Source: Streptomyces armeniacus
Lineage (GTDB): Bacteria > Actinomycetota > Actinomycetes > Streptomycetales > Streptomycetaceae
DNA length: 64,000 nt
Assembly (NCBI RefSeq): GCF_003355155.1
Contig: NZ_CP031320.1
Span: 1,102,369-1,166,368, forward strand
Reading direction: 5' to 3'
Each line of letters begins with the position of its first letter. Positions within the stretch are counted from its first letter, which is position 1. Below are positions 47,810-64,000 of this stretch, one piece after another. The notes beneath the pieces are model-generated. The model was not told where the DNA came from and searched no databases. It was given only the letters and a program-made list of their open reading frames with translations. The position numbers and the translations under genes are program-made.

Positions 47810-48441
47810 GGCTACTTCGTAGTCCTGTCTCTCGTAAACGCCCTGGAACCCGCGGGCGGCTTCTCCGTACGGACCTCCGCACTGACTCGCTCCGACCCAC
47901 GCGGTCGGGCGTGTCGCATCCCTTCCCGGAGTTCTCCGAGGGAGATTTCCTTTGGAAGGAGACGGGGGAAGAAACCCACCGGTGCCTGGCTGAAGCCCCT
48001 CCTGCACTTCCCGGAAGATTCCCGTACTTCCGCCCCTGATGAGGGGCGACGAATACGTTGGGACTCGCTTCCGGTCCTCCCGGCGGGAGGCGCGCAGCAT
48101 CGGCACTCAACCGAGCAACCTGCACAGTGTGCCATAGCCCGATTGCCCAAGGCCAATCGGGCCTCGGGGCCTGCGCGCGGGGCGGCGTGACGGGCGTACG
48201 GACCCTCGTACGAGGATACGCACCCGCTCCCCCGTGGCACGGCGGGGCGCTCCGCCGGCGGGGCACACTACACCGCGCGGGTCCGTGCCCCTCGTACGGG
48301 GTGGGGGCTCGTACGCGTGCCCGTACGCGGGCGGGACCGCCGCGGCCGCGCGACCCTTCGGCAGCATCGGCCGATTTGACTTGTTCTACTGCTTTGAGTG
48401 CTTTGCCTGTATTAGTCGATACGTCCCGTATCGTGCGGTTG
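47810..48441. other. 632-nt intergenic region upstream of rpsJ
   Basis: No convincing gene. It must hold the S10 operon promoter and leader on the minus strand and the start of a plus-strand membrane gene. A markedly AT-richer block (48370-48420) with TTGACT at 48376-48381 lies just upstream of the latter, but no matching -10 is spaced correctly. Several short stems (for example TCTCC-GAG-GGAGA near 47934) may belong to the S10 leader. In S. coelicolor this is the border of a variable region between tuf and rpsJ. Confidence 0.6.
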
Positions 48442-49179
48442 ATGGGCGACTGGTGGGCGCGGAACATCATCGAGCCGGGCAAGTTCCCGCTGCTGCTCGC
48501 GCTGAGCGCGTTCGTCGTCACCTTCGCGGTCACCCGCCTCGTCACGCGCATGATCCGCGCGGGCAGGGGCCCGTTCCGCAACGTCACGCCCGGCGGCGTA
48601 CACGTCCACCACGTCGTCCCCGGCATCCTGCTGATGACGGTCGGCGGCTTCACGGCCCTCGCGGGCGGCCGGCACGGCTGGGGCTCGGGCATCGCGGCGG
48701 TGCTGTTCGGCGTCGGGACCGGCCTCGTACTGGACGAGTTCGCGCTCGTCCTGCACCTCCACGACGTCTACTGGAGCAAGGAGGGCTCGCAGAGCGTCGA
48801 GGTCGTGATCGTCACCGTCGCCCTCACCGGGCTCCTCCTCGGCGGGTTCCTGCCGTTCGGCGTCGACTCGATGAGCGCGGACGAGGAGCAGAACAGACTC
48901 AACGCCGTCTCCACCGTCACCGTGAACCTCGCGTTCGTGCTGGTCACGCTGCTCAAGGGGAAGGTGCGGATGGCCGTCCTCGGCGTGCTCGTACCGCCCG
49001 TCGCCTTCGTCGGCGCCCTGCGGCTGGCGCGCCCGGCGTCGCCGTGGGCGAAGCGCGCGTACCGCGAACGCCCCCGCGCCCGCGCCCGCGCGACCCTCCG
49101 CGCGGCCCGGCACGACCGCCGCTGGAACGGGCTGCGCCGGCGCCTCAACTACCTGATCGGCGGCGCTCCCACCGAATGA
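48442..49179 (+). CDS. Integral membrane protein of unknown function
   Basis: 245 residues from the ATG at 48442; a GTG at 48433 is an alternative. Five or six hydrophobic segments (KFPLLLALSAFVVTFAVTRL; FTALAGGRHGWGSG with ILLMTVGG; VEVVIVTVALTGLLLGGFL; LNAVSTVTVNLAFVLVTLLK) are followed by a basic C-terminal tail. The loop GGVHVHHVVPG and the repeated His/Asp in LVLDEFALVLHLHDVYW look like possible metal or ligand sites. I do not recognise the family. It lies between rpsJ and the DISARM genes, 110 nt before drmD. Confidence 0.75.
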   Translation: MGDWWARNIIEPGKFPLLLALSAFVVTFAVTRLVTRMIRAGRGPFRNVTPGGVHVHHVVPGILLMTVGGFTALAGGRHGWGSGIAAVLFGVGTGLVLDEFALVLHLHDVYWSKEGSQSVEVVIVTVALTGLLLGGFLPFGVDSMSADEEQNRLNAVSTVTVNLAFVLVTLLKGKVRMAVLGVLVPPVAFVGALRLARPASPWAKRAYRERPRARARATLRAARHDRRWNGLRRRLNYLIGGAPTE

Positions 49180-49289
49180 CGGGCGCCATCCGCCTGCGGG
49201 TCACAGCACAAGTACGCCCGGACGTAAGCTTTCGGTGGCGTGACGGTGGGACACGCAACCGCAACCCGAAGTGACGAGGGGTACGCAGC

Positions 49290-52200
49290 ATGGCAGTCGT
49301 GAACGTGCGCGCGGATACGGAAGCCGATGACGTACGGCAGCCCCAGTCACCATCCGATGCCCGCCTGCCCGCCCTGGGACAACTTGTCACCGTACGCAAC
49401 CGCCAGTGGATGGTCACCGAGATAGCCCGCTCGTCAATCGCCGCGGACGACCCTGCCCGCGCGGCCGGCGGTGCAGCTTCCCATATGGTCACGCTGGTCT
49501 CAGTCGATGACGACGCCCGTGACGAGGAGCTGCGGGTGGTATGGGAACTGGAGCAGTCGGCGGTAGTACATGACCCTCACGAACTCCCCTCACCCACGAG
49601 CGGGTTCGACTCCCCGGACCGCCTCGACGCCTTCCTGGACGCCGTGCGCTGGGGGGCGGTGGCTTCCGCCGACCGCACGGCACTCCAGTCACCCTTCCGC
49701 TCAGGTGTGGAGATCCACGAGTACCAGCTGGCCCCGGTCGTACGTGCCCTGTCGATGCCCCGTACGAACCTGTTGATCGCCGACGATGTCGGGCTCGGCA
49801 AGACCGTCGAAGCCGGCCTTGTCATGCAGGAACTCATGCTCCGGCACCGCGCGCGCACCATGCTGATCGTCTGCCCTGCTGGCCTTACTCTCCAGTGGCA
49901 GGAGGAGATGCGGGACAAATTCGGCTTGGACTTCCGGATCGTCAACAGCACGCTGCTGCGTGAGCTGCGGCGCTCGAGCGGCCGGTACGCCAATCCGTGG
50001 ACGCACTTCCCCCGCCTGATCGTGTCGGTGGACTGGCTGAAGCGGGAACGACCAATGCGCACGCTCCGCGAGATGCTGCCGCAAGTACCCGAGTATCCCC
50101 GTGCGTTCGATCTGCTGGTGGTGGACGAGGTGCACACTTGCGCCCCTACCGGCACCGGTAAGTATGCGGTCGACTCTCAGCGCACCAAGGCCGTGCGCGC
50201 CCTGGCGCCGCACTGCGAACACCGACTCTTCCTCTCCGCCACACCGCACAATGGATACCTGGAGTCCTTCACAGCCCTGCTGGAGCTCTTGGACGACCAC
50301 CGGTTCGCCCGTGGTGTGAAGCCTTCGGAAGAGCAGCTGCGGCGGGTGATGGTGCGCCGTCTGAAGTCGGAGCTGCCGTCGGCCTGGGATGGCTCGCGGC
50401 GCTTCCCCGAAAGGGTCCCGCACGCCCTGGAGGTCCAGCATTCCGACTCGGCGCGGGCGGCGTACGGGAAGTTGTGCGCGTACGCGGGTTCCCGGCGGAG
50501 CGGCGGGGGCAAGGCCGAGCGGACGGCTTCCGACTTCGTGACATCGCTGCTGAAAAAGCGCTTCCTGTCCTCTCCGATGGCGTTCGCGGAAACCATCGAG
50601 GTCCATCTAAAGACGATGACCGCGCGGGACCACGAGCCGGACGATTCGGCGTCAGCGGCCACCCCCAGCGAACGAGTCCTGCTTCCGCTGATCCAGCAGG
50701 CCGAGGAGGCATCGGACAGCGACGAGGAGTACGGGGAAGCGGCCGAACGGGCGCTCACCGCCGTACGGCAGACTTCGCGCCCACTGACTGGCGAGGAAAG
50801 GGCGCTGCTGCGAGAGCTGTCGGCCTGGGCACGGGAGGCGGGCAAACGTCCGGACGCGAAGTTCACGGCCTTCCGCGGCTGGTTGGACGGGGTCGCCTGC
50901 CCGGACGGGCCGGCGCGCGACTGGACACGCGAGCGCGTGATCGTTTTCACCGAGTACCGGGACACTCAGCGCTGGCTCTACGGCCGGCTGATCGCCGCCG
51001 GATACCCGAAGGAACGCATCGCCCAGCTCTACGGCGGTCAGCGGCCGGACGAGCGTGAGCACATCAAGACCGTCTTTCAGGAAGACCCGGAACTCTCCGA
51101 CGTACGTATCCTGCTGGCCACCGACGCCGCCAGCGAGGGCATCAACCTCCAGGCCCACTGCCACCGGCTGCTGCACTGGGAAATCCCCTGGAATCCCAAC
51201 CGGCTCGAGCAGCGTAACGGCCGAATCGACCGGCACGGGCAGCGAGCGGCGCGCGTGGACGTGCACCACTTCGTACCCCAGGGATGGCAGGGCTTCGCCG
51301 CTTCCGGCACGGACTCCGCGCACGCGGACGGCACTCTGGAGGACGAGCTGCACTTCCTCGCCATCGCCGCACGCAAGACCGAACAGATCCGGGAGGATCT
51401 GGGCAGTGCCGGCGAGGTCATCGCCGCCCAGGTGGAGCAGAAGATGCTGGGTCGCCGATCGGACTGGACCGCCGCCGATACGGAGATCGCCAAGCGTTCC
51501 AGCCGCGAGGTGCTCAAGATCGAACGGGATCTGGCACGGGAACTGGAGAAGCTGGTCGGCGACTTGGCGGGCAGCCGCGCGGCGTTGCATCTCACCCCAG
51601 AGACCCTCGAACGAGTGGTGCGTACAGCGTTGCAGCTCGCGCACCGCAAGGACCTCACCCCTGTCCCCGCTCCCGGCACCGCGCCGGAAGCCAGCGCGCG
51701 TACGGCCGACTGCATGTCCCGTACCGCCCGCTGCTTCAGGCTGCCCGAACTGCCCGGCGCCTGGGCGCAGGCCCGTAATGAAGGCTTGCGGCACCCGCTC
51801 ACCGGCACGGAGCGCCCGGTCGTCTTCGACGAGACCGAGGCACGCGGGCGTACGGATGTCGTGCTCCTGCACCTCGGGCACCGGCTCGTGCAGATGTGTC
51901 TGCGGCTGCTCCGCGCCGAGCTGTGGTCCGGTGCCCGTGAGGCACGGCTCTCCCGCGTCACCGCGCGCGTGGTCCCCGGTGACGTGCTGCCTGCTCCAGC
52001 GGTGGTGGCGCACGGCCGGGTGATCATTTCCGGGAGTGGCGGCGCCCGGCTGCACGAGGAGATCATCACCGCCGGAGGCGTGATCACCGGCGGAGCGCTG
52101 GAACAGGCCCGCCAGGCCGACCTGGACGCCTGGCTTGCCGCCGCCACCGAGGAGCTGCCAGGGGAGACGATGCGTGACCAGCTCGCGGCCCTGTGGCCTG

Positions 52201-52583
52201 GCCTGGAGGATCGGCTCTCGCGTGCTCTGCGCAATCGAGCGCACACCAGGTTCCGCGCTTTGACGACCGTGCTCGGCAAGCGTTGCGAGGAGGAAGTCGA
52301 AGGCGTACGGAAGGTTCTGGACGAGCTGGAGAAAGCCATCCGCGCCCGCCTGGACGACCACGGCTATTGGGAACAGGGCTCGCTCTTCGACGTGGACGAC
52401 GAACGCCGTCAGCTGCGCGCTGACCGTGAAGCGCTGCACGAGCGGCTACGGAACCTGCCCGGCCTGATGGAATCCGAGACCACCGCGCTGCGCCGCCGCT
52501 GGGCCGACCCGACACCGCGCTGGTTTCCCGCCGCTGTCACTTTCCTCGTCCCGTCCGCCCTCGCCCGGGGAGACCACCGCTGA
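49290..52583 (+). CDS. drmD: DISARM protein DrmD, SNF2-family helicase
   Basis: 1097 residues. Superfamily 2 motifs are complete: Walker A DDVGLGKT (165-172), VCPAGLTLQWQEEM, DEVH (279-282), SATPHNG (316-322), then LLATDAASEGINLQ and the arginine-finger motif QRNGRIDRHGQRA in the second RecA domain. The C-terminal 450 residues are helical with no recognised domain. In class 1 DISARM, DrmD is the defining SNF2 helicase and works with a methylase and DrmABC to block phage DNA. GAGGGG precedes the ATG. Its TGA overlaps the next start (TGATG), coupling it to drmMI. Confidence 0.92.
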   Translation: MAVVNVRADTEADDVRQPQSPSDARLPALGQLVTVRNRQWMVTEIARSSIAADDPARAAGGAASHMVTLVSVDDDARDEELRVVWELEQSAVVHDPHELPSPTSGFDSPDRLDAFLDAVRWGAVASADRTALQSPFRSGVEIHEYQLAPVVRALSMPRTNLLIADDVGLGKTVEAGLVMQELMLRHRARTMLIVCPAGLTLQWQEEMRDKFGLDFRIVNSTLLRELRRSSGRYANPWTHFPRLIVSVDWLKRERPMRTLREMLPQVPEYPRAFDLLVVDEVHTCAPTGTGKYAVDSQRTKAVRALAPHCEHRLFLSATPHNGYLESFTALLELLDDHRFARGVKPSEEQLRRVMVRRLKSELPSAWDGSRRFPERVPHALEVQHSDSARAAYGKLCAYAGSRRSGGGKAERTASDFVTSLLKKRFLSSPMAFAETIEVHLKTMTARDHEPDDSASAATPSERVLLPLIQQAEEASDSDEEYGEAAERALTAVRQTSRPLTGEERALLRELSAWAREAGKRPDAKFTAFRGWLDGVACPDGPARDWTRERVIVFTEYRDTQRWLYGRLIAAGYPKERIAQLYGGQRPDEREHIKTVFQEDPELSDVRILLATDAASEGINLQAHCHRLLHWEIPWNPNRLEQRNGRIDRHGQRAARVDVHHFVPQGWQGFAASGTDSAHADGTLEDELHFLAIAARKTEQIREDLGSAGEVIAAQVEQKMLGRRSDWTAADTEIAKRSSREVLKIERDLARELEKLVGDLAGSRAALHLTPETLERVVRTALQLAHRKDLTPVPAPGTAPEASARTADCMSRTARCFRLPELPGAWAQARNEGLRHPLTGTERPVVFDETEARGRTDVVLLHLGHRLVQMCLRLLRAELWSGAREARLSRVTARVVPGDVLPAPAVVAHGRVIISGSGGARLHEEIITAGGVITGGALEQARQADLDAWLAAATEELPGETMRDQLAALWPGLEDRLSRALRNRAHTRFRALTTVLGKRCEEEVEGVRKVLDELEKAIRARLDDHGYWEQGSLFDVDDERRQLRADREALHERLRNLPGLMESETTALRRRWADPTPRWFPAAVTFLVPSALARGDHR

Positions 52584-55500
52584 TGCCGTCTGCCGACCGC
52601 ACTCACCGTCCGGCCGCACCGGGGATGCCCCCGCGGTCGGCGAAGTCGAGGGGTCACGTGCCCGCCCCGGCGGAGCAGCACGAGGAGTGGCTGCGGCTGC
52701 TGCGCCCGGACGGCCCGTTCATCGCCCTCCCGGTGCTCACTGAGACCTTCCCGCAAGGCCTGGACACCGTGCCGGACACCACGCGCGCCCGCATCCGGCA
52801 GGCGTGGGCGGAAGTTCAGGAGGACCCCGCGCTGCTCGGCCACGGCTGGGAGCGGTTGGTACTCAGCGAACTGCTGGGCTGGAAGCCCGGGTTGCGCGAG
52901 GGCGCCACACTGCCCGAGTCTCTGCGCGCGGGCGCGCACACCCCGCACGCCGTGCTCTTCGGCCCCGCCGCCCCCGGACAGGACGGGCCGTGCCCGCGCG
53001 TGCTGTTCTTCCGTATCGGCTGGGGCGAGTCGCTGACACGCGCGAAGGGTGACACTCCCTCCCTGGTGGACCGCGCCGCCGACCTCGCCCGCTGGCGCGA
53101 GGTGCCGATTGCGCTGCTGAGCAACGGCCGTGAGTGGGCGCTGGTGCACGCGCGTCCGAAGGAGGCCACCACCGTCGCTGTCTTCGACGCCGACCTGTGG
53201 TCGGAGGAGCCGCTGCTGCTGCGGTCATTCGCGAGCCTGCTGCACGCCCGCCGTGCCGCACTGCCGCCGAAGGACGCCGCCGGACAGCACTCCAGCTCCC
53301 TCGCCGCCCTCTTCGCCCGGAGCGCCGAGCTTCAATCCGAGGTCACCGACACCCTCGGACGGCAGGTCCGCGAGGCGGTCGCCCTGCTCGTCGCCGAACT
53401 GTCCCGCCTGGACCGCGAGTCGGACGGCGCGCTGCTCAACGGAGTCCGCGGCAAGCACGTGTACGAGAGCACGGTCACGGTGATGATGCGGCTCGTCTTC
53501 CTGCTGTACGCGGAGGAGCAGCGGCTGCTGCCCGCTGAGGACCGCCTGTACGCGGACTCGTACGCGGTGAGCACGCTGTACGCCGACCTGGACGCCGCCC
53601 GCCACCTGTACGGCGATGAGCTGGGCGACCGCCGCGCCGCCGCGTGGCCGCGTCTGCTCGCGCTGTTCGCCGCGATCCACGGCGGCTGCCGCCACGACCA
53701 GCTGCGCATCCCCGCGTACGGCGGTTCGCTCTTCGACCCGGCCCGATTCCCGTGGCTGGCCGACGGGAAGGTCACGGACCGCGTGGTTTACGAGATCCTC
53801 GACGCGTTGCTGGTCCTCCGCCGTACGCGCGCGGGCGGCGACGAAGCCCTCTCGTACAAGGGCCTGGACGTCGAGCAGATCGGTCATGTCTACGAGGGCC
53901 TGCTGGAGTACGCCTGTGAGCGCGCCCTCGATCCGCATGTGGGCGTCGCACTGGGCAGGGACGGCCGGTACGAGGCGGTGCTGCCACTCGCCGAACTGGA
54001 GGCGTGGAAGGCCGCGGGGCCGGACACACTGGAGCGAGAGCTGAAGGAGGCCACCGGAGTCACCGCCGTCGGGCAGATCCGGCGCGCGCTGGCGATGGGC
54101 GCGGGCGCGGACAAGGGCTCTGGGGCCGGTACGGTCCTCGCCGTAACGGGTGAACTGGACGCCGCCTGCGGCAACGATGAGCAACTCGCCACCCGGGTGG
54201 CCCCGTTCACCGGTCTCCTCGATGACGACCTGCGGGGCATGCCGAAGGTATTTCCCGCGGGTTCTGTCGTACTGGTCCGAGCGGGCGACCGCCGAAACAC
54301 TGGAACCCACTACACGCCCAAGGAGCTGGCCGAGGAAGTCGTCAGCCACACCCTCGCCCCGCTCTGCTTCTCCCCAGGGCCGGCGGAGGGAGCGGAACCG
54401 GGGGTGTGGCGCGCGAAGGGGGCGGACGAGCTGCTCCGGCTCCGGGTACTGGACCCCGCGATGGGCTCCGGCGCCTTCCTGGTCTCCACCTGCCGGTACC
54501 TCGCCGATCGTGTCGTCGATGCCTGGCTGCGCGACGGCCTGCCCGAAGCCGTAGGACAGGACGTGGGGCGAGACGACCGGGACGAACTGCTGCGCGTGGC
54601 CCGCCGCCTGGTCGCCGACCAGTGCCTGTACGGCGTGGACCGGGACCCGATGGCTGTCGAACTGGCCAAACTGTCGCTGTGGCTGGTCACCTTGGCCAAG
54701 GGCCGCCCGTTCTCCTTCCTCGACCACGCACTGCGCAGTGGGGATTCGCTGGTGGGCGTCCTGGACGTGGAGCAGATCAAAGCCCTGCACCTGGACGCGG
54801 GTGCCCGGCAGCTCAGCGACGACGTGTCGCGTGCACTGGACGTCACTGAGTCGCTGCTGTCGCAGGCGGCCGAGCTGAGGCAGCGGATCGAGGCGACGCC
54901 GGTCGTGGATATTCGGGTGGTACAGGACAAGGCCGAACTCCTGCGGGAAGCCGAGTCGTTGTCGGGACGACTCCGGCTCGCGGCGGACGCGGTGGTGGGC
55001 GCAGCGCTGGCGGCCGAGGGCATCGACGACGAGGAGGCGGCGGAGCTTTCCGGAGAGGAGAACACGGGCGGCAAGCGCGGAGCGGCGGTGTTCCGTTCGG
55101 TGAAGGAAGATGCGAAGGCGGAGGCGTACGAGAACCGGCTGGCGGCGGTCGCGGGTCTGGTGGTGCGTGCGCTGGAGGACGACGATCCGGAGGCTGCGGA
55201 GCAGGCCCGGGGCATGGTGGACAGGTGGCTGACGGGCCCCCGGGCCGAGCCGGTACGGCCGTTGCACTGGCCGCTGGAGTTCCCGGAGATCATGGGTGTG
55301 GGCGGGACCACGCGGGGCTTCGACGCGGTGGTGGGCAACCCGCCGTTCAGCGGGGGCCAGAAGCTCACCGGAAACCTGGGCCGGGACTACCGCGAGTACC
55401 TGGTCAACCGGCTCGGCGGCGGCACGCGCGGCAGCGCGGACCTGTGCGCGTACTTCCTGCTGCGGAACCTGTCGCTGGCTCCGGGACGCCGTACGGGCAT

Positions 55501-56791
55501 CATCGCGACGAACACCATTGCGCAGGGCGACACCCGCGAGGTCGGCCTCGACCAGGCGACCTCGGCGGAGTGGCGGATCTACCGGGCGATCAAGTCCCAG
55601 AAGTGGCCGGGCACGGCCGCGTTGGAGGTCTCGCTGGTGTGGCTGGGCGGTCACGCGGGCGAGCAGGAGCGGCTGGTGCTGGACGAGCGGGAGGTACGGG
55701 GGATCACGCCCGGCCTCGACCCGCAGTCGCGGGTGAGCGGCAAGCCGTACCGGCTTGCGGCGAACGCTGAGGAGTCGTTCATCGGGTCGTACGTCCTAGG
55801 CAAGGGCTTCATCCTCCCGCCGGAGCAGGCACGGGCGCTGATCGAGAAGGACCCGCGCAACAAGGACGTGCTGTTCCCGTACCTCAACGGGGAGGACCTC
55901 AACTCGCGGCCGGACTGCTCCGCGAGCCGGTGGGTGATCAATTTCCACGACTGGCCGCTGGAGAAGGCGACGACGTACGAGGACGTGTTCGCGATCGTGG
56001 AGCGGGAGGTCAAGCCGGTACGGGCGACGAACCCGAATCGCCAGCGCAGAGAGTTTTGGTGGCGATTCACTCGTCCGACGCTCGATCTCTATGAGGCCAT
56101 TGCCGACCTTGACCAGGTCATCGTGATCGCCTTGGTGAGCCGCACTGTCATGCCCGCACGAGTACCTGCGAATCAGGTCCTCGCCCATAAGCTATGCGCT
56201 TTCACGGCTCAGCAAGCCAGCCAGTTGGCATTGCTGTCAAGCGCAGTGCACTCAGCGTGGGCATGGAGGTACTCCTCAACGATGAAGGCCGACCTCAACT
56301 ACTCACCGTCCGACGTCTTCGAGACGTTCCCACTTCCTCCGGAAAACGATCGCCTCATGGCAGCCGGGAACACACTGGAGAGAGCCCAGCGCAATGCCAT
56401 GGCAGCCCGAAATATCGGACTGACCAAGCTCTACAACGCCGTCCACGACAAGTCCGAGCAGGCCGCAGACGTGGCAGCCGTACGCGCGGCGCACGTCGAA
56501 GTGGACGAGGCAGTTGCCGAGGCGTACGGCTGGGGCGACCTCGACATGGGGCACGGGTTCCATCCGACCCGTCAGGGCGAGCGGTTCACCATCGAACCCA
56601 GCATTCAAACCGAGGTCTTGGACCGGCTGTTGCTACTGAACCACGTGCGCTACAAGGAGGAGCAGGAAGCCGGTTCGCGCACGCCGAAGGCACGGAAGAA
56701 GGCTGTCCCGCAACAGAAGGCGAGGGCCGAGGCCGACCCGGAAGAAGGCATCCAGGGCGAGCTGTTCAGTTCGCCCGGCACCAACTCCTGA
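52583..56791 (+). CDS. drmMI: DISARM adenine-N6 DNA methyltransferase DrmMI
   Basis: 1402 residues. The SAM-binding motif DPAMGSGAFL starts at residue 624 and the catalytic NPPF lies at 919-922 (FDAVVGNPPFSGG), the gamma order typical of Type IIG/PglX-like enzymes. The N-terminal 500 residues and the part after about 1000 (target recognition, with FSGGQKLTGNLGRDYREYLV near the start) frame the catalytic core. The family marks host DNA with m6A so that DISARM can tell self from phage. Its start shares one base with the drmD stop. Specificity is unknown. The C-terminal basic tail (TPKARKKAVPQQKARAEADP) ends near a separate insert. Confidence 0.92.
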   Translation: MPSADRTHRPAAPGMPPRSAKSRGHVPAPAEQHEEWLRLLRPDGPFIALPVLTETFPQGLDTVPDTTRARIRQAWAEVQEDPALLGHGWERLVLSELLGWKPGLREGATLPESLRAGAHTPHAVLFGPAAPGQDGPCPRVLFFRIGWGESLTRAKGDTPSLVDRAADLARWREVPIALLSNGREWALVHARPKEATTVAVFDADLWSEEPLLLRSFASLLHARRAALPPKDAAGQHSSSLAALFARSAELQSEVTDTLGRQVREAVALLVAELSRLDRESDGALLNGVRGKHVYESTVTVMMRLVFLLYAEEQRLLPAEDRLYADSYAVSTLYADLDAARHLYGDELGDRRAAAWPRLLALFAAIHGGCRHDQLRIPAYGGSLFDPARFPWLADGKVTDRVVYEILDALLVLRRTRAGGDEALSYKGLDVEQIGHVYEGLLEYACERALDPHVGVALGRDGRYEAVLPLAELEAWKAAGPDTLERELKEATGVTAVGQIRRALAMGAGADKGSGAGTVLAVTGELDAACGNDEQLATRVAPFTGLLDDDLRGMPKVFPAGSVVLVRAGDRRNTGTHYTPKELAEEVVSHTLAPLCFSPGPAEGAEPGVWRAKGADELLRLRVLDPAMGSGAFLVSTCRYLADRVVDAWLRDGLPEAVGQDVGRDDRDELLRVARRLVADQCLYGVDRDPMAVELAKLSLWLVTLAKGRPFSFLDHALRSGDSLVGVLDVEQIKALHLDAGARQLSDDVSRALDVTESLLSQAAELRQRIEATPVVDIRVVQDKAELLREAESLSGRLRLAADAVVGAALAAEGIDDEEAAELSGEENTGGKRGAAVFRSVKEDAKAEAYENRLAAVAGLVVRALEDDDPEAAEQARGMVDRWLTGPRAEPVRPLHWPLEFPEIMGVGGTTRGFDAVVGNPPFSGGQKLTGNLGRDYREYLVNRLGGGTRGSADLCAYFLLRNLSLAPGRRTGIIATNTIAQGDTREVGLDQATSAEWRIYRAIKSQKWPGTAALEVSLVWLGGHAGEQERLVLDEREVRGITPGLDPQSRVSGKPYRLAANAEESFIGSYVLGKGFILPPEQARALIEKDPRNKDVLFPYLNGEDLNSRPDCSASRWVINFHDWPLEKATTYEDVFAIVEREVKPVRATNPNRQRREFWWRFTRPTLDLYEAIADLDQVIVIALVSRTVMPARVPANQVLAHKLCAFTAQQASQLALLSSAVHSAWAWRYSSTMKADLNYSPSDVFETFPLPPENDRLMAAGNTLERAQRNAMAARNIGLTKLYNAVHDKSEQAADVAAVRAAHVEVDEAVAEAYGWGDLDMGHGFHPTRQGERFTIEPSIQTEVLDRLLLLNHVRYKEEQEAGSRTPKARKKAVPQQKARAEADPEEGIQGELFSSPGTNS

Positions 56792-56847
56792 TCGCATCAG
56801 GCTCCGCTCTGGTGACGGCTGGGAGCGGAGCGTCTGCTGCTGAGCGG

Positions 56848-57054
56848 TCAGTTCACGGCCACGTGCGACACGAACCCCGCCCACGCCTCCGGCGTGACGG
56901 CCAGCTGCGGCCCATGCTCAGCCTTGGAGTCACGCACGTGTATCGTGCCGGGCGTTGCCGCGACCTCTACGCAGTCAGGTCCGTCGTTACTGCTGAAGCT
57001 GCTTTTGACCCACTCCAGCGCCGAGCCGTCTCCGGGGGAAGGCTTGAGCGTCAT
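56848..57054 (-). CDS. DUF397-domain small protein
   Basis: 68 residues with the DUF397 core WVKSSFSSNDGPDCVEVAAT PG and VRDSKAEHGPQLAVTPEAW. In streptomycetes these always partner XRE/DUF5753 regulators (WhiJ-like sets), probably as antitoxin-like or modulating proteins. The ATG overlaps the stop of the upstream XRE gene by 4 nt. It stands on the strand opposite to the DISARM genes. Confidence 0.9.
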   Translation of the reverse strand: MTLKPSPGDGSALEWVKSSFSSNDGPDCVEVAATPGTIHVRDSKAEHGPQLAVTPEAWAGFVSHVAVN

Positions 57055-57932
57055 ATCTCTCCCAGCAGTTTCTCGATGTACGCCAACGACTCGCGCGGCG
57101 TAAGAGCTTGCGATCGGATGATTCCATACCGCAACTCAAGGATCTGCACTTCCTGGGGCTTGGAGATCAGCCGGCTGGTCAGCTGCACCTCGGAGTGTCC
57201 CACCGTCGTTCCGTCGCTGAGCTTCAACAGGCGGATCTCACCCGCCATCCCCGCATGATCGTCACGGTCGTGCGGCATCACCTGGATCTCGACGTGTCGC
57301 AACTGGCCGACTTCCAGCAGACGTTCCAACTGTCTGCGGTGCACCACTTGGCCACCGATCGGACGTCGAAGTGTCGCCTCCTCCTGAACGAACGTCAGCG
57401 TGGGTGACGGGCGTCGCTCGAAAACCTCTTGCCGCGCCATGCGTGCCGCTACCTGCCGTTCGACCTCATCCTCCGGGTATGCCGGGCGCCGCATCTCAAA
57501 CAGCGCACGGGTGTGCTCCTCCGTCTGCAACAACCCGTGCATGTTGTGGTTGCCGTAAGCACCAAGCTCAACCGCCTCCCCCTCCAGCTTGGCCAGATCC
57601 CGTACCTTCTTCGGGTACCGCGCCTCCGCCACGTCCTTCTTCATCGCGGACAACTTCCCGCCCGCGCCCAGCACGTCGTCCGCGCTGTCCAGGAAGTCCG
57701 GTTGCGGGATGCGCTTGCCCGCCTCGACCTTGTAGACCAGGTTCTCGCTGTACCCGATCTGCGAGCCGAACTCCGACTGGCTCAGCCCCGCCTCCGTCCG
57801 CCACAGCTTCACCTGGCGGCCGACCATCTCGATCACCGCGCCCGAGTCGTCCCCCGGATCGAGATCCCAGCCCGGCGCGTCCGCGCCGTCCGTCGTGTAG
57901 TCCGTGCTGCCGCTCTCGCCGTTCACACCCAC
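57051..57932 (-). CDS. WhiJ-like XRE regulator with DUF5753 domain
   Basis: 293 residues from the GTG at 57932, chosen because GGAGGT lies 9 nt upstream; an ATG-type frame to 57980 would add 16. The helix-turn-helix covers about 35-95 (VKLWRTEAGLSQSEFGSQIG YSENLVYKVEAGKRIP). The C-terminal DUF5753 region includes HGLLQTEEHTRALFEMR, FVQEEATLRRPIGG and VQVMPHDRD-like HVEIQVMPHDRDDHAG. Such genes with DUF397 and an HATPase regulate development in Streptomyces. It is divergent from the ATPase remnant at 58095. Confidence 0.9.
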   Translation of the reverse strand: MGVNGESGSTDYTTDGADAPGWDLDPGDDSGAVIEMVGRQVKLWRTEAGLSQSEFGSQIGYSENLVYKVEAGKRIPQPDFLDSADDVLGAGGKLSAMKKDVAEARYPKKVRDLAKLEGEAVELGAYGNHNMHGLLQTEEHTRALFEMRRPAYPEDEVERQVAARMARQEVFERRPSPTLTFVQEEATLRRPIGGQVVHRRQLERLLEVGQLRHVEIQVMPHDRDDHAGMAGEIRLLKLSDGTTVGHSEVQLTSRLISKPQEVQILELRYGIIRSQALTPRESLAYIEKLLGEI

Positions 57933-58094
57933 CGTGCGCCCACCTCCGACGTGCTGCCCCGACACGTGCCTCGCGTCCACGTCGGCGGGTCACGGCGTAC
58001 GGCCCGGACCAGCCCGGACACGCACCTGACAGTCACCGTGCGTACGGGAGTCATCACTGGTCAGCCTAGTAACGTTCCGGCCAACGTGAGCAGC

Positions 58095-58574
58095 ATGAAA
58101 GAAGAAATCACTCGAACCGAAAATTCCGCAATGGCACGCCGCTTCAGCACGCTGCTCTCCCCCACTCGCCGGGGCGCCTAGGTCGCCCGTCAGCTCGCGG
58201 TGGCACAACTCCGTTCCTGGGACGCGCCGTTCGAGACCGCGGCCTACGTCGTAGCGGAACTGGCCGCGAACGCCGTACAGCACGGCCGCGTGCCCGGCCG
58301 GGGCTTCCGTCTGGCCCTGGCCCTGACCCCGGGCGACGGCTCTGCCGGTGACTCCACCCTGCGTATCGAGGTGACTGACGCGCGCGCCGAGCGCCTGCCC
58401 GGCACCCGCCGACATGCCCCGCACCCGGACGACGAGTCCGGCCGCGGTCTCCTCCTCGTCGGCGCCCTCGCCGATCGCTGGGGCGTCATCCCGGGTCCGG
58501 TGCCGGGCAAGACCGTATGGGCGGAACTCGACCTCGCGTCCGTACCCGCGCCTGCCTCCCCGGACAGCCCTTAG
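58095..58574 (+). pseudogene. HATPase of the WhiJ-like set, split by an in-frame amber codon
   Basis: From ATG 58095 the frame reads 28 residues (ending FSTLLSPTRRGA), then TAG (58179-58181), then VARQLAVAQLRSWDAPFETA without a frame change. In intact homologues this region is continuous (TPRGARLARRLAVHQL-like). The remainder has the N-box VAELAANAVQHG and the G2 motif DDESGRGLLLVGALADRWG. A GTG at 58200 could restart a 124-residue product lacking the first strand. So this is a recent nonsense mutation, a read-through gene or a truncated protein; I favour a pseudogene. The first 45 bases are AT-richer than the rest. Confidence 0.75.
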
Positions 58575-58632
58575 AGTGAGGAACGGGACATCCGGCCCCA
58601 CGTCACAGCTGCCGACGGAAGGAGCGAGCGCC

Positions 58633-59223
58633 ATGACGGTCGCCCCCGACCACACCGCGCATGACGCGCTTCAGTATCAGGCGATGCGGGACATCGTCGA
58701 GCGGATACAGGACAGCGTTCCCGGCAAGCTGGAGATCACCAAGGAAGGAATCGCGCACGACATGATGTCCCCGGGGGGCCCGCACGAACTGACGGCGGCG
58801 CGCGTCAGCCGTCGGCTGGAAAAGGTGATGCCCGACGGCCTACTGGCGCACACGGGAACTCCCGATGTGGAGGACCCGAAGGAAGGCGTGCTGCGGCACC
58901 CGGACGTCATGGTCATCTCCGAGGCGGACATGGAGGTGGAGGGAGCCTTCGATCCCCGGACCGTCATCGCTGTCGTCGAGGTGGTCTCCCGGTCCAATCC
59001 GGACAACGACTGGGCGGGGAAGACGCGGGACTATCCGCTGCTCGGCATCCCGGTCTACGTGATCTTCGACCCGCGTACCGCCGAAGGCACCGTACTGACC
59101 GACATCCACCCGACGCCGTCGGGCCCCCGGTACGCGACCCGGAAGGACTTCGTGTACGGCGAGGACATCACCATCGGCGAGTGGACGATCTCCACGGAGG
59201 ATCTGCCCCGTTACGCCCCGTAG
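58633..59223 (+). CDS. Uma2-family (DUF820) nuclease-fold protein
   Basis: 196 residues from the ATG at 58633 (AGGAG upstream). The PD-(D/E)XK-type core is Asp in HPDVMVI, Glu in VIAVVEVVSRSNPDND and Lys in WAGKTRDYPLLGIPVYVIFD. Role unknown for the family. It lies inside the DISARM interval, on the same strand as the drm genes, and converges with the 395-aa gene (21-nt gap). It is distantly related to the 25585 gene. Confidence 0.9.
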   Translation: MTVAPDHTAHDALQYQAMRDIVERIQDSVPGKLEITKEGIAHDMMSPGGPHELTAARVSRRLEKVMPDGLLAHTGTPDVEDPKEGVLRHPDVMVISEADMEVEGAFDPRTVIAVVEVVSRSNPDNDWAGKTRDYPLLGIPVYVIFDPRTAEGTVLTDIHPTPSGPRYATRKDFVYGEDITIGEWTISTEDLPRYAP

Positions 59224-59244
59224 TGTCGCGGCAGGAGCCGCCCC

Positions 59245-60432
59245 TCAGTCAGTGGCCTGCGTGACGGCGAACTCGGTGACGGGCTCCACACGGGCGTGAC
59301 CGCCCCGTGCCACCACGTCGCCGCGTACCGCCACCTCGTGGCCGCGGTCGTGCGCGACGCTGGCCCGGGAGTAGTCCTGTTCCTCCAGGACCATGCGGTA
59401 GCGGCGCGGGCGGCGGTCCCCCTCACCCTCCAGGTTGCCCAGCACGGTGGCCTCACCGGGACCGTGGGTCAGCGCGCGGTCCAGGCGGACGACGTTGCCG
59501 TGCACCAGGACGTTCCGGTGGCCCAGCCGTTCCCGCAGATCCTTCGCGCCCGCCTCCAGCGCGACGAACAGCCGGCGGTTCAAATCGACCGGAGGGGTCT
59601 TCTGGTCCATGGGGAGATCGCCGGACCAGGCGAACGTGAAGTCGTAGGGCCGCCGTTCGTCCCCTGCGATGCGTACCAGCGCCTCGCAGAGATTCGCGGA
59701 CAGGCCGGCCGGTGCGAACTCTGCGAAGTGGTCCAGGGTGTCGTCGCGTACGGCCTGCTCTGCCGCCTGGCGGGCGCAGTACACGCCCGCCCACAGGCGG
59801 CGGGAGACGAGCCGCTCGGCGGGCTCGGACACGCTGTCCGGACGGCCGTCCAAGGGGAGGAAAGCTGGCGGAGGCGGCTCCGAAAGCGGTGTGTGCGCGG
59901 CGATCACGTAACTGCCCACACGCGTCTGGTCCAGCCGTACGGTGGCGACGTGGTCTTTGACCCGCTGGGGCTTCTGGGCGGGCTGGACGGACTGGGGCTC
60001 GGCAGCGAACGCGGCGGCGGCCGCAGCGGTCATCACGTCCTTCAGGCCCGCGAGTGCGGGCACCAGATCCACCAGCGGGGCCGTGCCGGACGGGCCAGGC
60101 GGGGCCAGGCGCAGGAACTGCCAATCGGCGGATGGGAGGGCCATCTCCCGCAGCAATTGGCCTGGGCTGCGGGCCTCCACCGTGGACAACGTCTCCAGCA
60201 CGTCGGCGATGCGGGCGGCATAGTCCCGGGTCCGGTCCAGCGGCACCAGCACCTCGTACGGAGGGCCGCCCGCGAACGGGCCGCCCGGGGTCTGGGGGAC
60301 AGCGAGTGTCCAGAGCTCACCGCGACCGTAGTCACGGTCGTAACTCCAGCCGCGTGACCGCAGGTAACGCAGGACCGCCCGTGGCGACAGCCCGCCTGCC
60401 CGCTCGAAGTCGGCGTCCGTGACCGGTGTCAT
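59245..60432 (-). CDS. Unrecognised 395-residue protein paired with a DUF4365 gene
   Basis: I do not recognise this family. Residues 15-95 look like a small alpha/beta domain (SPRAVLRYLRSRGWSYDRDY, then EVLVPLDRTRDYAARIADVL). An Ala/Pro/Gln-rich linker lies near 135-155. A second part begins DHVATVRLDQTRVGSYVIAA, and a beta-rich end (EVAVRGDVVARGGHARVEPV) resembles an OB-like strand set. No signal peptide or membrane segment. The ATG overlaps the DUF4365 stop by 4 nt, so the two proteins are made together. Location inside a DISARM locus suggests a defence or regulatory role, which is inference. Confidence 0.8.
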   Translation of the reverse strand: MTPVTDADFERAGGLSPRAVLRYLRSRGWSYDRDYGRGELWTLAVPQTPGGPFAGGPPYEVLVPLDRTRDYAARIADVLETLSTVEARSPGQLLREMALPSADWQFLRLAPPGPSGTAPLVDLVPALAGLKDVMTAAAAAAFAAEPQSVQPAQKPQRVKDHVATVRLDQTRVGSYVIAAHTPLSEPPPPAFLPLDGRPDSVSEPAERLVSRRLWAGVYCARQAAEQAVRDDTLDHFAEFAPAGLSANLCEALVRIAGDERRPYDFTFAWSGDLPMDQKTPPVDLNRRLFVALEAGAKDLRERLGHRNVLVHGNVVRLDRALTHGPGEATVLGNLEGEGDRRPRRYRMVLEEQDYSRASVAHDRGHEVAVRGDVVARGGHARVEPVTEFAVTQATD

Positions 60433-60938
60433 GACGCCACCAGCATTTCCCGGAAATCATCCGTGAACAGGTCGTGCAGGGCGCCGACGGTGAGGAGATT
60501 CGTCCGCGGGACGTACACCATGCGGGAACTCTTGTCCGGGCAGTCCGGCTCCTTGTCGTGGAAGCACGCCCAGTAAGCCGCGTGCCGCAGCAGCAAATTC
60601 TCGGCGCTGACGTGAACCCATTCCTCCGCTTTGTCCGGCACAACCACCAGGAAGAGGAACCGGGGGAGCTGATAGTCGCGGCCCGCGAGCCAGTTGTAGT
60701 TCTTACCCCGGAGCGGATAGTGCCACGTGTCCGGGGGCTGCGCGTGAGACGGCGCCCAGCACTTCACCTGGACGTCGATGGAGGGGTACCGGCGGGTCCC
60801 GTGGCGGCCCGGATAGCCCAACTGCCAGTCGACGCCGACGCGGTCGCGGTCCCGGCGACTGGCGTCGAGGTTCGCGACGGCGGCGAGCGCCCTCACGAAC
60901 TGCTCGCCGAAGTCCCCTTTGTGGCCGTTGTCACCCAT
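60429..60938 (-). CDS. DUF4365-domain protein, predicted PD-(D/E)XK-like nuclease
   Basis: 169 residues from the ATG at 60938 (MGDNGHKGDFGEQFVRALAA); a frame to 61031 is possible but lies in the drmA upstream region. The nuclease-like core shows Glu in GEQFVRALAAVANL, Asp in RVGVDWQLGYPG and the motif YPSIDVQVKCWAP, matching the D...(D/E)xK arrangement of DUF4365. W/H/C-rich residues follow (RGKNYNWLAGRDYQLPRFLF LVVVPDKAEEWVHVS). DUF4365 proteins occur near restriction and defence genes. It is coupled to the 395-aa gene and divergent from drmA, 267 nt away. Confidence 0.82.
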   Translation of the reverse strand: MGDNGHKGDFGEQFVRALAAVANLDASRRDRDRVGVDWQLGYPGRHGTRRYPSIDVQVKCWAPSHAQPPDTWHYPLRGKNYNWLAGRDYQLPRFLFLVVVPDKAEEWVHVSAENLLLRHAAYWACFHDKEPDCPDKSSRMVYVPRTNLLTVGALHDLFTDDFREMLVAS

Positions 60939-61177
60939 GTCCAGGGCGTCAACTGTCCCACCCGCGTGGTGACTTTGATGGGGGATGTCACCCGCCGCAC
61001 CGTCCGCCACGCGCTCTCCCCCACTTCGCACCTGTGTCCGTTCGATGGCACAGGGTAGTCACAAGATCTCTGACACGGAAGCCCCGTTGGCCCCTTTCCC
61101 GGAGCTTCTGCTGCCTAGGGCGGCCACCTTCCGCGGACCGGCCCGACAAAGCGGCGGACGCCATCGACAGGGAACGC

Positions 61178-61191
61178 CTGACCGATGTCAG
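61178..61191. promoter_or_regulatory. Small palindrome just upstream of drmA
   Basis: CTGAC-CGAT-GTCAG lies 15 nt before the GTG at 61206, in the divergent region between drmA and the DUF4365 gene. It could be an operator; arms are only 5 bp, so chance is possible. Confidence 0.3.
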
Positions 61192-61205
61192 TGCGCGGAT
61201 CTAGG

Positions 61206-64000
61206 GTGAACGTCGTGACTCAGGAGAGCCTTCCCGCGACAGCGGGCGACAGCCCGGACGGCGGCCCGGAAGACCAGCAGGCGCCGCCGGCCCTCGACGC
61301 GGCGACCCCGCAGCAGATCCGCGACGAGCTGGCCGAGCTCGTCGTCACAGACCTGCTCGGACCAATCGGTGGCCAGGACGAGGAGCTCGACGGCAATCCC
61401 ATCGACCACTACCTCATCGGCAGGCTCGCCCCGGCCGGGATTACCGTCGACGGCATGCTCAAGCTCGGCGGCATGCCCGTCGATCCTGGCACCTTCGACG
61501 AGAAGACGATCGCCGGAGTGCCCGACGCAGAGGAGGGTGATCGCGACACAGATGCACCGAACATCCCCAGCCTCCAGCCGTCTTCACTCGGCTTCACCGC
61601 CCGGGTGGACGGCTCGGTGGACGAGCTGCGGCTGCACTGCTCCTGGGCACGGTATCTGGCGGGACATTCCAGCGACCGGGAGCGCACCGACCGCGTCTGG
61701 CACCGGTCGGCGTTCGCTGACACGGTCACTGTCTGCCTTCAAGAGGGAGAGATCGCCCCCGAGCCGGTCCTGCCACACGAGTTTCCCGACGTCGTCGTGC
61801 GCGGCCGGGCCCGTCGGCATGACGGCGACTGGCTGGTGTCCCTGTTCCTGGTGAACGGCCAGGCCCAGGGAGAGCGGCGGAGTGCGCATAACTGGCTGTT
61901 CCAGACCGTCCTCACTGCTAGCGGTCCAGACGGCACCGCCCCGTTCCTGCCCCGAAGAGCGCCGGACACGGCTGGTGGCGACGCCGCCGAGCGCACCGAA
62001 CGGCGGTCCCTGGCGATGGCCCACCGCTTCCATCCGGAATTCGCCGTCGGGCACGGCACCGGGGTGCGCTCGGAGCCAAGTCCCGGCGATCCGTTGCGCG
62101 CCGCACAGATCACGACCACGGCCGCGCCGTCGTACGAGATCCCGCACACCGACGTGCCCGATCCGCTCGGCGAGCACGACGCGGATCTCGCGGAGTTGCG
62201 TGACCTGGTGCTCGACATGCGGGAGCTCGCCAGTCTGGAGCCGACGGCTCTGCGCACGGCGCTGCTGCCGCTCGTCGAGGGCTACCGTGCGTGGATCGAG
62301 CGCACGGCACAGTCGATTGACGAGCCGGGCACCCGCCTGGACGGGTACGAAGCGGAGGCGCGCGACAATCTGCGGCGAGCGGGCGAAACCGCCGACCGCA
62401 TCCAGGCGGGTGTTGAGCTGCTGACGGAAGAGGCGGCCCTGGAGGCATTCCGGTTCGCCAATGAGGCCATGTGGCAGCAGCGAGTCCACACTCTCGCCAG
62501 TGCCCACCGCCGCAGCGATCAGGAACTTTCGCTTGCTGCGGCGGTGGAGGCAGTAGACCTGCCCCGCAACCGTAGCTGGCGGCCGTTCCAGCTCGCCTTC
62601 CTGCTCCTCAACCTCCCTTCCCTGGCCGATCCCTCGCACCCCGAGCGGTCCGATGACGCAGCAGCGCTCGCTGACCTGCTGTGGTTTCCCACCGGTGGCG
62701 GCAAGACGGAGGCGTATCTCGGTCTCACCGCCTTCACATTGGCCATCCGGCGCCGTCTACGCGGACTTGGCGGGCTCAACAGCGAGTCCGGGGTCGCCGT
62801 GCTGATGCGCTACACGCTGCGGCTGCTGACGATTCAGCAGTTCCAACGCGCGGCAGCGCTGATCTGCGCCTGCGAGACGATTCGCCGGTCCGACCCGATC
62901 CGGTGGGGCGAGGTGCCCTTCCGTATCGGTCTGTGGGTCGGCGGCAGTGTCACGCCGAACTCCACCGACCAGGCACACGGCTGGCTGAAGGACCTCCGCA
63001 AGGACAGGGGCCGCGGCAGACGGCGCGGTCGCTCGGGTTCCCCGCATCAGCTGACGAGTTGCCCATGGTGCGGCACCAAGCTCGACGCCGGACGGGACAT
63101 CAGTGTGGACACCACAGCGCGCCGGACATTCATCGTCTGTCCGGACGTGTTCTCGTGCCCCTTCGGAATGGGCGCACTCGAGGCCGCTTCGGACGAGCGT
63201 GGACTGCCTGTTCTGGTGGTCGATGAGGAGATCTACCGGCTGCCGCCCAGCCTGGTCATCGCCACAGTCGACAAATTCGCCCAGCTGCCCTGGAAGGGCG
63301 AGACGCAGACGCTCTTCGGCAGAGTGGCCAAGTGCTGCACCAGGCACGGCTACGTCACGGCGGATGCTGTGGACAGCGAGTGGGAACGGCCGAGCCACCC
63401 CGCACAGCACGGCCACCCTGCGGCCCGCACACTCGACGTGCAGAGGGTACGGCCACCGGACCTCATCGTGCAGGACGAGCTGCATCTCATCTCAGGGCCG
63501 CTCGGCTCTCTCACCGGGCTGTACGAAGCGGCTGTCGACCGGCTCTCGACGTGGGACATCCAGCCCGGCCAGGCCGTCCGGCCAAAGGTCATCGCGTCCA
63601 CCGCCACGGTGCGCCGTGCGGAGCGGCAGATCAAGGACCTGTTCGGCCGCCGGACTGCCGTGTTTCCACCACCTGGTCTGACCATGGACGACAACTTCTT
63701 CGCGCGGCGCAGAAGTACGGGTGTCAAGCCAGGCCGCCGGTACGTGGGCATCTGCGCCCAGGGGGTGCGCACCAAGTCGGTGGCCATCCGGGTCTACGTG
63801 GCGCAGCTCGCCGCCGCCAAACTCCTCCACGAGCGGTACGGACAGGGTGAGCTCACCGATCCGTACATGACCCTCGTCGGCTACTTCAATAGCCTGCGGG
63901 ACCTGGGCGGCATGCGCAGGCTGGTGGAGGACGACGTCTCCACCAGGCTTGCCCGGGTGGACCGGCGGGGACTGGCCACCCGGTTCCTGGGGGAGCCCGC
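61206..64000 (+). CDS. drmA: DISARM protein DrmA, helicase-domain protein (N-terminal 931 residues)
   Basis: Open to the right edge of the window; the usual length is about 1200-1300 residues. GTG at 61206 or 61215 starts it. Walker A is WFPTGGGKTEAYLGLTAFTL (residues about 493-512), motif II is IVQDELHLISGPLG and motif III is VIASTATVRRAERQIKDLFG. A cysteine pair SCPWCGTKL with CPDVFSCPFG, and CCTRHGY, suggest a zinc site. These match DrmA, whose helicase with DrmB forms the DNA-binding core that is relieved by methylation-free DNA. DrmB and DrmC should follow outside the window. Confidence 0.92.
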   Translation, partial: MNVVTQESLPATAGDSPDGGPEDQQAPPALDAATPQQIRDELAELVVTDLLGPIGGQDEELDGNPIDHYLIGRLAPAGITVDGMLKLGGMPVDPGTFDEKTIAGVPDAEEGDRDTDAPNIPSLQPSSLGFTARVDGSVDELRLHCSWARYLAGHSSDRERTDRVWHRSAFADTVTVCLQEGEIAPEPVLPHEFPDVVVRGRARRHDGDWLVSLFLVNGQAQGERRSAHNWLFQTVLTASGPDGTAPFLPRRAPDTAGGDAAERTERRSLAMAHRFHPEFAVGHGTGVRSEPSPGDPLRAAQITTTAAPSYEIPHTDVPDPLGEHDADLAELRDLVLDMRELASLEPTALRTALLPLVEGYRAWIERTAQSIDEPGTRLDGYEAEARDNLRRAGETADRIQAGVELLTEEAALEAFRFANEAMWQQRVHTLASAHRRSDQELSLAAAVEAVDLPRNRSWRPFQLAFLLLNLPSLADPSHPERSDDAAALADLLWFPTGGGKTEAYLGLTAFTLAIRRRLRGLGGLNSESGVAVLMRYTLRLLTIQQFQRAAALICACETIRRSDPIRWGEVPFRIGLWVGGSVTPNSTDQAHGWLKDLRKDRGRGRRRGRSGSPHQLTSCPWCGTKLDAGRDISVDTTARRTFIVCPDVFSCPFGMGALEAASDERGLPVLVVDEEIYRLPPSLVIATVDKFAQLPWKGETQTLFGRVAKCCTRHGYVTADAVDSEWERPSHPAQHGHPAARTLDVQRVRPPDLIVQDELHLISGPLGSLTGLYEAAVDRLSTWDIQPGQAVRPKVIASTATVRRAERQIKDLFGRRTAVFPPPGLTMDDNFFARRRSTGVKPGRRYVGICAQGVRTKSVAIRVYVAQLAAAKLLHERYGQGELTDPYMTLVGYFNSLRDLGGMRRLVEDDVSTRLARVDRRGLATRFLGEP

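Follow-up and report, generated by a model that had tools for sequence, protein, structure and literature searches.

Why should a compact defence operon be opened by several kilobases at one junction, and are the genes found there an accident of one strain? The question is raised by a stretch of 64,000 nucleotides from Streptomyces armeniacus, hereafter the window, which corresponds to bases 1102369-1166368 of an 8.08-Mb single-contig genome; coordinates called extended refer to DNA taken past its position 64000. The window carries a DISARM (defence island system associated with restriction-modification) locus in which drmD and drmMI overlap by 1 base, drmA and drmB overlap by 4 bp, and 4,393 bp separate the drmMI stop codon from the start of drmA. 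A sequence-only reading of the window had noticed the one-base overlap and placed drmA about 4.4 kb further on, as the coordinates now confirm, and had described the split as due to an insert. The split is neither private to this strain nor arbitrary in content: the same junction is open in many relatives, and it contains a WhiJ/BldB/AbaA-type regulator module together with the gene pair PDC-M02AB. The drmMI-drmA junction is a recurrent accessory slot, whereas the other DISARM junctions are almost always closed, and we consider it likely that the locus is a variant of class 1 DISARM without drmC, endowed with a recurrent slot for regulators and cargo.

A recurrent slot between drmMI and drmA

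Two samples of loci were compared. The first was drawn from 199 genomes of the genus, that of the window included, in which loci with a drmMI match better than 1e-100 were taken; the second comprises 80 named loci, the best-scoring of 575. Three loci (L082, L087, and L132) were dropped as duplicates before the all-locus counts, which rest on 103 loci with drmMI. The gap between drmMI and drmA exceeds 500 bp in 49 of the 83 loci where it could be measured, and drmA was not reached in 15 further loci having more than 2 kb after drmMI. Gaps of this size were found at 3 of 98 drmD-drmMI junctions, at none of 68 drmA-drmB junctions, and at none of 59 drmB-drmC junctions. Of the 103 loci, 39 have matches to XRE/DUF397 regulators in the drmMI-drmA gap (519 kb scanned), against two with matches upstream of drmD (579 kb) and none with matches downstream of drmB (268 kb). 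At the DUF397 density of the S. armeniacus genome (about 35 genes in 8.08 Mb, from 46 rows, some of them split), about two would be expected in the drmMI-drmA gap and about two upstream of drmD; the upstream count is therefore background-like and that of the gap is not.

Among the 25 assessable loci of the genus sample, 13 carry an antisense pair of regulator genes directly after drmMI, including G032, which ends 561 bp past drmMI with the DUF397 gene and part of the XRE gene visible; a 26th locus (G099) breaks off within drmMI and is not assessable. The pair lies at 940 bp in one other locus and XRE/DUF397 genes are on the other strand in two; seven loci are contiguous, one has only an inverted drmMI fragment, and one only a histidine kinase-like ATPase (HATPase) gene. 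Spacing is similar across loci, DUF397 lying mostly 59 to 91 bp and the HATPase gene mostly 1340 to 1420 bp after drmMI. As many relatives are interrupted likewise at the same point, the interruption looks recurrent by design rather than accidental.

The distribution of the pair was followed on a FastTree phylogeny of 98 drmMI proteins, from which G099, L104, L148, L094, and L152 were left out for a short or broken drmMI; L099 was kept despite its interrupted drmMI frame, because of which its regulators lie at +1640 and beyond. Of the 98 rows, 26 have a WhiJ/BldB-type pair in antisense orientation after drmMI, with similar spacing. All 12 loci of clade a, which are from Streptomyces and include the window, have it. 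Of the 17 rows of clade b, 12 have it, three more have it at a distance, and one has it on the other strand, the last row harboring the HATPase gene only. Two further, single occurrences of the pair are in G122 and Streptoalloteichus (L101). An AbaA-type HATPase gene follows it in 23 of the 26 rows; it is missing in L083 and L101, and G032 ends too early. By parsimony, the antisense-pair state requires seven changes, six of them forced by well-supported branches, from which we infer that several lineages acquired the slot module separately. A single recent 4.4-kb insertion into an ordinary operon, confined to this strain, would agree with the contiguous drmMI and drmA of 7 of the 25 assessable genus loci and of sister lineages, among which the 32 contiguous tree rows are found. 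The presence of the module in 12 of 12 clade-a loci led us to reject this very improbable scenario. No account of this DISARM arrangement was found among the best matches in the open-access PubMed Central (PMC) literature.

A class 1 DISARM core without detectable drmC

The class 1 assignment made by the sequence-only reading is upheld by profile searches, DrmD, DrmA, and DrmB scoring above the NCBIfam cut-offs and DrmMI being recognized by PADLOC (table 1); the name DrmMI is that of PADLOC, the NCBIfam models giving no DrmMI match. As the match to the DrmD model begins at residue 27 of a frame of 1097 amino acids (aa), drmD must start at or before about position 49368, and the start at 49485 proposed by the gene caller is too late. 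The locus shares with class 1 DISARM the genes drmD, drmMI, drmA, and drmB in this order, with DrmA and DrmB matching the Serratia DrmAB complex 7s9v. It differs from it in that no drmC was found and that a regulator module and cargo part drmMI from drmA.

Table 1. Features of the DISARM locus and of its drmMI-drmA slot (window coordinates unless called extended)
Feature	Coordinates	Strand	Evidence and remarks
drmD, SNF2-like helicase	49290..52583	+	PADLOC DrmD 1351.6 bits; NCBIfam NF038317 1295.3 bits (cut-off 610)
drmMI, MmeI/Eco57I-type adenine methyltransferase with target recognition domain (TRD)	52583..56791	+	PADLOC DrmMI 1562.1 bits; Pfam Eco57I, MmeI_Mtase, MmeI_TRD
DUF397 (BldB-like), 68 aa	56848..57054	-	Pfam DUF397 75.3 bits; 57 bp past drmMI stop
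XRE/DUF5753 (WhiJ-like) regulator	57051..57980	-	Pfam DUF5753 159.5 bits, HTH_31 48.3 bits; start uncertain (57932 or 57980)
Operator-like site, degenerate 11-bp-period repeats	58010..58047	+	Clade-a weight matrix 28.1 bits (trained on these sites)
AbaA/RsbW-like HATPase gene	58095..58574	+	Pfam HATPase_c_2 33.5 bits; ATG 58095
Uma2 (PADLOC PDC-S03), cargo	58633..59223	+	Pfam Uma2 48.6 bits, PDC-S03 44.2 bits, both on longer frame from 58414
PDC-M02B, unknown fold, cargo	59245..60432	-	PADLOC PDC-M02B 384.4 bits
PDC-M02A, DUF4365	60429..60938	-	PADLOC PDC-M02A 233.4 bits, Pfam DUF4365 55 bits (longer frame); frame may start 61031
drmA, helicase, 1217 aa	61185..64000, on to 64838 extended	+	NCBIfam DrmAS 1318.3 bits (cut-off 950); PDB 7s9v_A E 3.9e-292
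drmB (DUF1998), separate gene past window	64835-66703 extended		NCBIfam DrmB_fam 697 bits (cut-off 240); PDB 7s9v_B E 4.5e-174

Past position 64000, where the sequence-only reading expected drmB and drmC, the former is present and the latter, the gene of a phospholipase D protein, was not found. No PADLOC DrmC match occurred among the genes scanned to the right of drmB, and a search of extended positions 64001-72000 with 13 DrmC queries, directed at drmC or a remnant of it, gave a best E value of only 0.042; two PLDc_2 matches in the genome lie far from the locus. In the 60 loci whose sequence continues for over 1 kb past drmB, drmC is missing only here, in L101, and in L114. Since DrmC is called dispensable and often missing in a published account (PMC9142583), we file the locus as a class 1 variant and not as a complete five-gene member. 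The type I definition of PADLOC prohibits drmE and demands all five core genes, the latter according to PMC9252829. The five-gene rule would thus not report the locus as complete, and slots with gaps of up to 28 kb may likewise escape limits set on gap length. Neither drmE nor drmMII was among the listed matches of the genes scanned, in a search that covered locus genes only.

A system related to DISARM with a similar helicase and methylase, such as ARMADA, a BREX (bacteriophage exclusion)-like system, or a type IIG system, might be mistaken for it. DrmMI also hits a type IIG model in the PADLOC scan, with 744.3 bits, and ARMADA is stated to have two more genes in common with class 1 DISARM (PMC12458937). 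The same source describes the YprA-like helicase of ARMADA as carrying the DUF1998 module in the same protein, whereas in DISARM this module is encoded in a separate gene (PMC12458937). Here drmA and drmB are separate genes, pass the NCBIfam DISARM models, and match the solved DrmAB complex. ARMADA or another such system was therefore rejected as extremely improbable.

The regulator module and what it may control

From drmMI to drmA, the gap holds DUF397 and XRE/DUF5753 genes on the minus strand, then, on the plus strand, an interrupted HATPase gene and a Uma2 gene, and finally PDC-M02B and PDC-M02A, again on the minus strand. This agrees with the list given by the sequence-only reading, whose broken ATPase is the AbaA/RsbW-like HATPase gene. 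All three components of a WhiJ/BldB/AbaA module are thus present, the HATPase gene being interrupted by an in-frame TAG at 58179-58181, with its domain in a downstream 124-aa frame (58200-58574). Comparison of the N-termini shows that some relatives have intact copies. In Streptomyces, such DUF397, XRE, and HATPase genes are described as paralogues of bldB, whiJ, and abaA, with a median of 19 bldB paralogues per bldB-containing genome (PMC10294661). The closest likeness is to the iosA-whiJ9-bldB9 cluster, as presented in that study, which shares the succession of XRE/DUF5753 and DUF397 genes, a divergent HATPase gene, and repeats upstream of the divergent gene (PMC10294661). Unlike the whiJ/bldB/abaA clusters, the module described here is embedded at a fixed place in a defence locus.

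Alignment of the intervals between the XRE and HATPase genes suggests direct repeats with an 11-bp period, of the CCGTACAA type in clade b and of the CCGGACA type in clade a. They are reminiscent of three direct repeats to which WhiJ9 of Streptomyces venezuelae binds, reported to lie 113 bp upstream of the iosA start site, WhiJ9 being needed to activate iosA once BldB is lost (PMC10294661). With a strict consensus, the repeats were detected in 7 of 14 clade-b loci, always within the XRE-HATPase interval. Weight matrices derived from sets of 10 and 11 loci give 27-50 bits to their training sites and about 15 bits or less to the listed matches outside the interval (12.6 bits for the best listed in the window), a difference to be read with the limits that the matrices were trained on the very sites scored and that the outside matches are the top four listed per locus. 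In four loci, genes separate XRE from HATPase; three of them have a second, weaker operator-like copy about 130-145 bp before the displaced HATPase gene (L129, L085, and L084, with 23.2, 18.7, and 15.7 bits), and the fourth, G136, does not. As the best repeats lie between the XRE and HATPase genes, the direct target of the regulator may be HATPase instead of drmA. We also considered that the XRE protein controls drmD or drmA directly and rejected this, strict scan and matrices giving matches at noise level only; among the top four listed per locus, G140 (14.9 bits) and L088 (12.9 bits) have one less than about 300 bp before drmD.

These features suggest how the locus might work. The genes drmD and drmMI would form one transcription unit and drmAB another, probably with a promoter of its own, given that the genes just before drmA are on the minus strand. 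The sequence-only reading had proposed drmA, probably with drmBC, as a separate unit, so that effector and methylase could differ in their time of expression; the compact drmA-drmB pair fits this proposal, the promoter being presumed, and drmC drops out of it. DrmMI would mark self DNA and DrmAB would load on unmodified ends and block invading DNA, in line with work on DISARM in which DrmAB is described as loading onto unmodified DNA with a 5' overhang (PMC9142583). By analogy with WhiJ9 and BldB of S. venezuelae, the XRE protein would bind the repeats and activate the rightward HATPase promoter, and perhaps genes beyond it, and the DUF397 protein would restrain this WhiJ-like activator. More speculatively, the module could tie DISARM or its cargo to a developmental or stress state, and the M02A nuclease could stand in for the missing DrmC.

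Extending this scheme, we put forward, tentatively and with more doubt than confidence, that DISARM of Streptomyces is wired into the BldB network. The DUF397 protein would oligomerise with BldB or its paralogues and gate a WhiJ-type activator, which would switch HATPase, cargo, and drmAB, by read-through or through a sigma factor, according to life-cycle or stress state. The drmD-drmMI unit would stay on and protect self DNA, and lineages would have gained the gate independently at the same junction. If the module does regulate DISARM, spore-forming development would be linked to innate antiphage immunity, and some of the many BldB paralogues would have a testable job.

The alternative, plausible even if we give it somewhat less than an even chance, is that the slot is a permissive hot spot without regulatory meaning: genes would enter harmlessly between drmMI and drmA, and the abundant WhiJ/BldB/AbaA modules would hitchhike. 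Published abstracts propose these modules as toxin-antitoxin systems, and similar trios adjoin other genes elsewhere. Several further observations favor this alternative or otherwise weigh against our main reading. A gap of at least 400 bp without any detected XRE/DUF397 gene occurs in 21 of the 98 tree rows, two of which have a HATPase gene. Neither the strict scan nor the matrices revealed a strong operator-like site before drmD or drmA, and in clade a the strict scan succeeded in one of 12 loci only (G117), the window not included. The stop codon in the HATPase gene of the window suggests that the module may be decaying here, and the gate may be weakened or lost in this strain because of it. 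The second sample, chosen by score, is not random, and every XRE/DUF397 query was taken from a DISARM locus of the genus, so that regulators of other kinds may be undercounted everywhere. Lastly, PADLOC matched only two of ten further cargo proteins at 1e-15, the others including a beta-lactamase-fold protein and a poly(A)-polymerase/HD protein; the slot is therefore not filled by known defence genes alone.

The phylogeny of the regulators gives a divided answer. In clade a, it also counts against a DISARM-bound module: the XRE proteins mix with non-DISARM paralogues from elsewhere in the genomes, in a tree whose background rows are those nearest to the XRE protein of the window and include four that are themselves DISARM copies. 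The XRE protein of the window is 71% identical to a copy elsewhere in G085 and 57-61% to the DISARM-linked ones of clade a. Because of this intermixing, the place appears to have been kept in clade a and the regulator exchanged. In clade b, 14 of 15 regulators fall in one supported clade, the outsider (L143) being on the other strand, and a search of 19 whole genomes returned six best matches that are all DISARM-linked (query included); around the next one, in G110 (68%), the 20 kb fetched contain no DISARM. Strict co-inheritance of regulator and DISARM, which fits clade b, was hence rejected for failing in clade a. This DISARM-linked regulator clade of clade b does not sit easily with a mere hot spot, nor do the antisense orientation and similar spacing of DUF397 and HATPase genes across loci, the retention of the module in 12 of 12 clade-a loci, and the second operator-like copy before the displaced HATPase gene in three of four separated loci. 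Even without regulation, the strongly biased opening of a single junction amounts to a rule for gene entry into a defence locus.

Cargo, chromosomal setting, and drmMI variants

Both genes of the PADLOC candidate system PDC-M02 are present in the window as strong matches, adjacent and with a 4-bp overlap. No paper using the term PDC-M02 was found in the PMC literature. PDC-M02B has no Pfam match, and neither protein has a PDB relative at E values up to 1. Residues D37, Q57, V58, and K59 of M02A are invariant in 37 rows, and this protein is probably a PD-(D/E)XK-type nuclease. M02AB lies between the regulators and drmA in all 10 clade-a loci that reach drmA, L084 and L085 ending too early. In other lineages it is found elsewhere, before drmD in G015, G039, G122, and, weakly, L092, and after drmB in L101 and L140. 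What distinguishes PDC-M02 here is its company: the ten best M02B matches in the 199 genomes are at DISARM loci (eight) or remnants (two, G145 and G160), whereas the next eleven loci, with weaker matches, lack drmD and drmMI over the 16-20 kb fetched, a short drmA-like stretch being present in four. PDC-M02AB thereby gains a likely partner system. In L226, L227, L232, and L233, a distant PDC-M02AB lies about 2.5 kb from a stretch 34-39% identical to part of drmA; loci of this type are perhaps another helicase-based defence system. As for the remnants, L222 (G145) has drmMI fragments with M02AB, GmrSD, and UvrD genes, and L223 (G160) has the regulator trio and an M02B fragment with no drm match within 20 kb.

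Cargo before drmA in several clade-b loci comprises GmrSD type IV restriction, a UvrD-like helicase, and a helicase-nuclease of about 2000 aa, and several clade-b loci have a protein-kinase gene before drmD. Five of them (L048/L067, L049/L068, L050/L069, L053/L070, and L071/L054) share the succession GmrSD, a 280-aa gene, the helicase-nuclease of about 2000 aa, and UvrD between the regulators and drmA, the drmMI-drmA gap being 20-28 kb in the four that reach drmA. BREX islands with type IV restriction inside reportedly offer a parallel, likewise having extra defence genes within a defence locus. Compared with that nesting, a regulator module of developmental type marks the entry of the slot here.

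On a Streptomyces-type chromosome, the DISARM island lies between two ribosomal operons, S10 and str, with rpsJ to its left and, to the right of drmB, an alpha/beta hydrolase gene followed by tuf, fusA, rpsG, and rpsL. The distance from tuf to rpsJ is 20.2 kb in this genome (window 47810-64000, on to extended 68003) and spans a range of about 0.4 to 24 kb among the 18 genomes, out of 21, that have both genes together; in the other three, rpsJ has no match, the genes are far apart, or they are on different contigs. This wide variation indicates that the island sits in a variable interval. The 248-aa gene to the left of drmD was considered as an old flank marker and rejected, the copy of relatives not being near tuf where both share a contig. 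The tuf-rpsJ interval of G009 also holds a WhiJ-like gene. In the same genome, away from its DISARM locus (L183, G009:C1:6461257), a whiJ/bldB-type pair directly follows a drmMI-like gene (31%); the regulator association may extend to other methylase loci.

Several loci depart from the usual form or place of drmMI. Three Streptomyces loci contain, after drmMI, a second, inverted, partial drmMI 3' end arranged tail-to-tail (L045:9692-11727, L141:13064-14951, and L146:13175-15002). The inverted repeats are near-perfect (266 nt at 100%, 402 nt at 95%, and 246 nt at 99%, respectively), and beyond them the two versions differ, with about 30-60% identity per 40-residue window. The arrangement resembles a switch that would change the target specificity of DrmMI by inversion. 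Between its regulator pair and drmA, L056 (G122) carries another drmMI match, almost full-length and on the opposite strand. In L112, from a Melainabacteria metagenome-assembled genome, drmMI precedes drmD and drmA, an unusual order.

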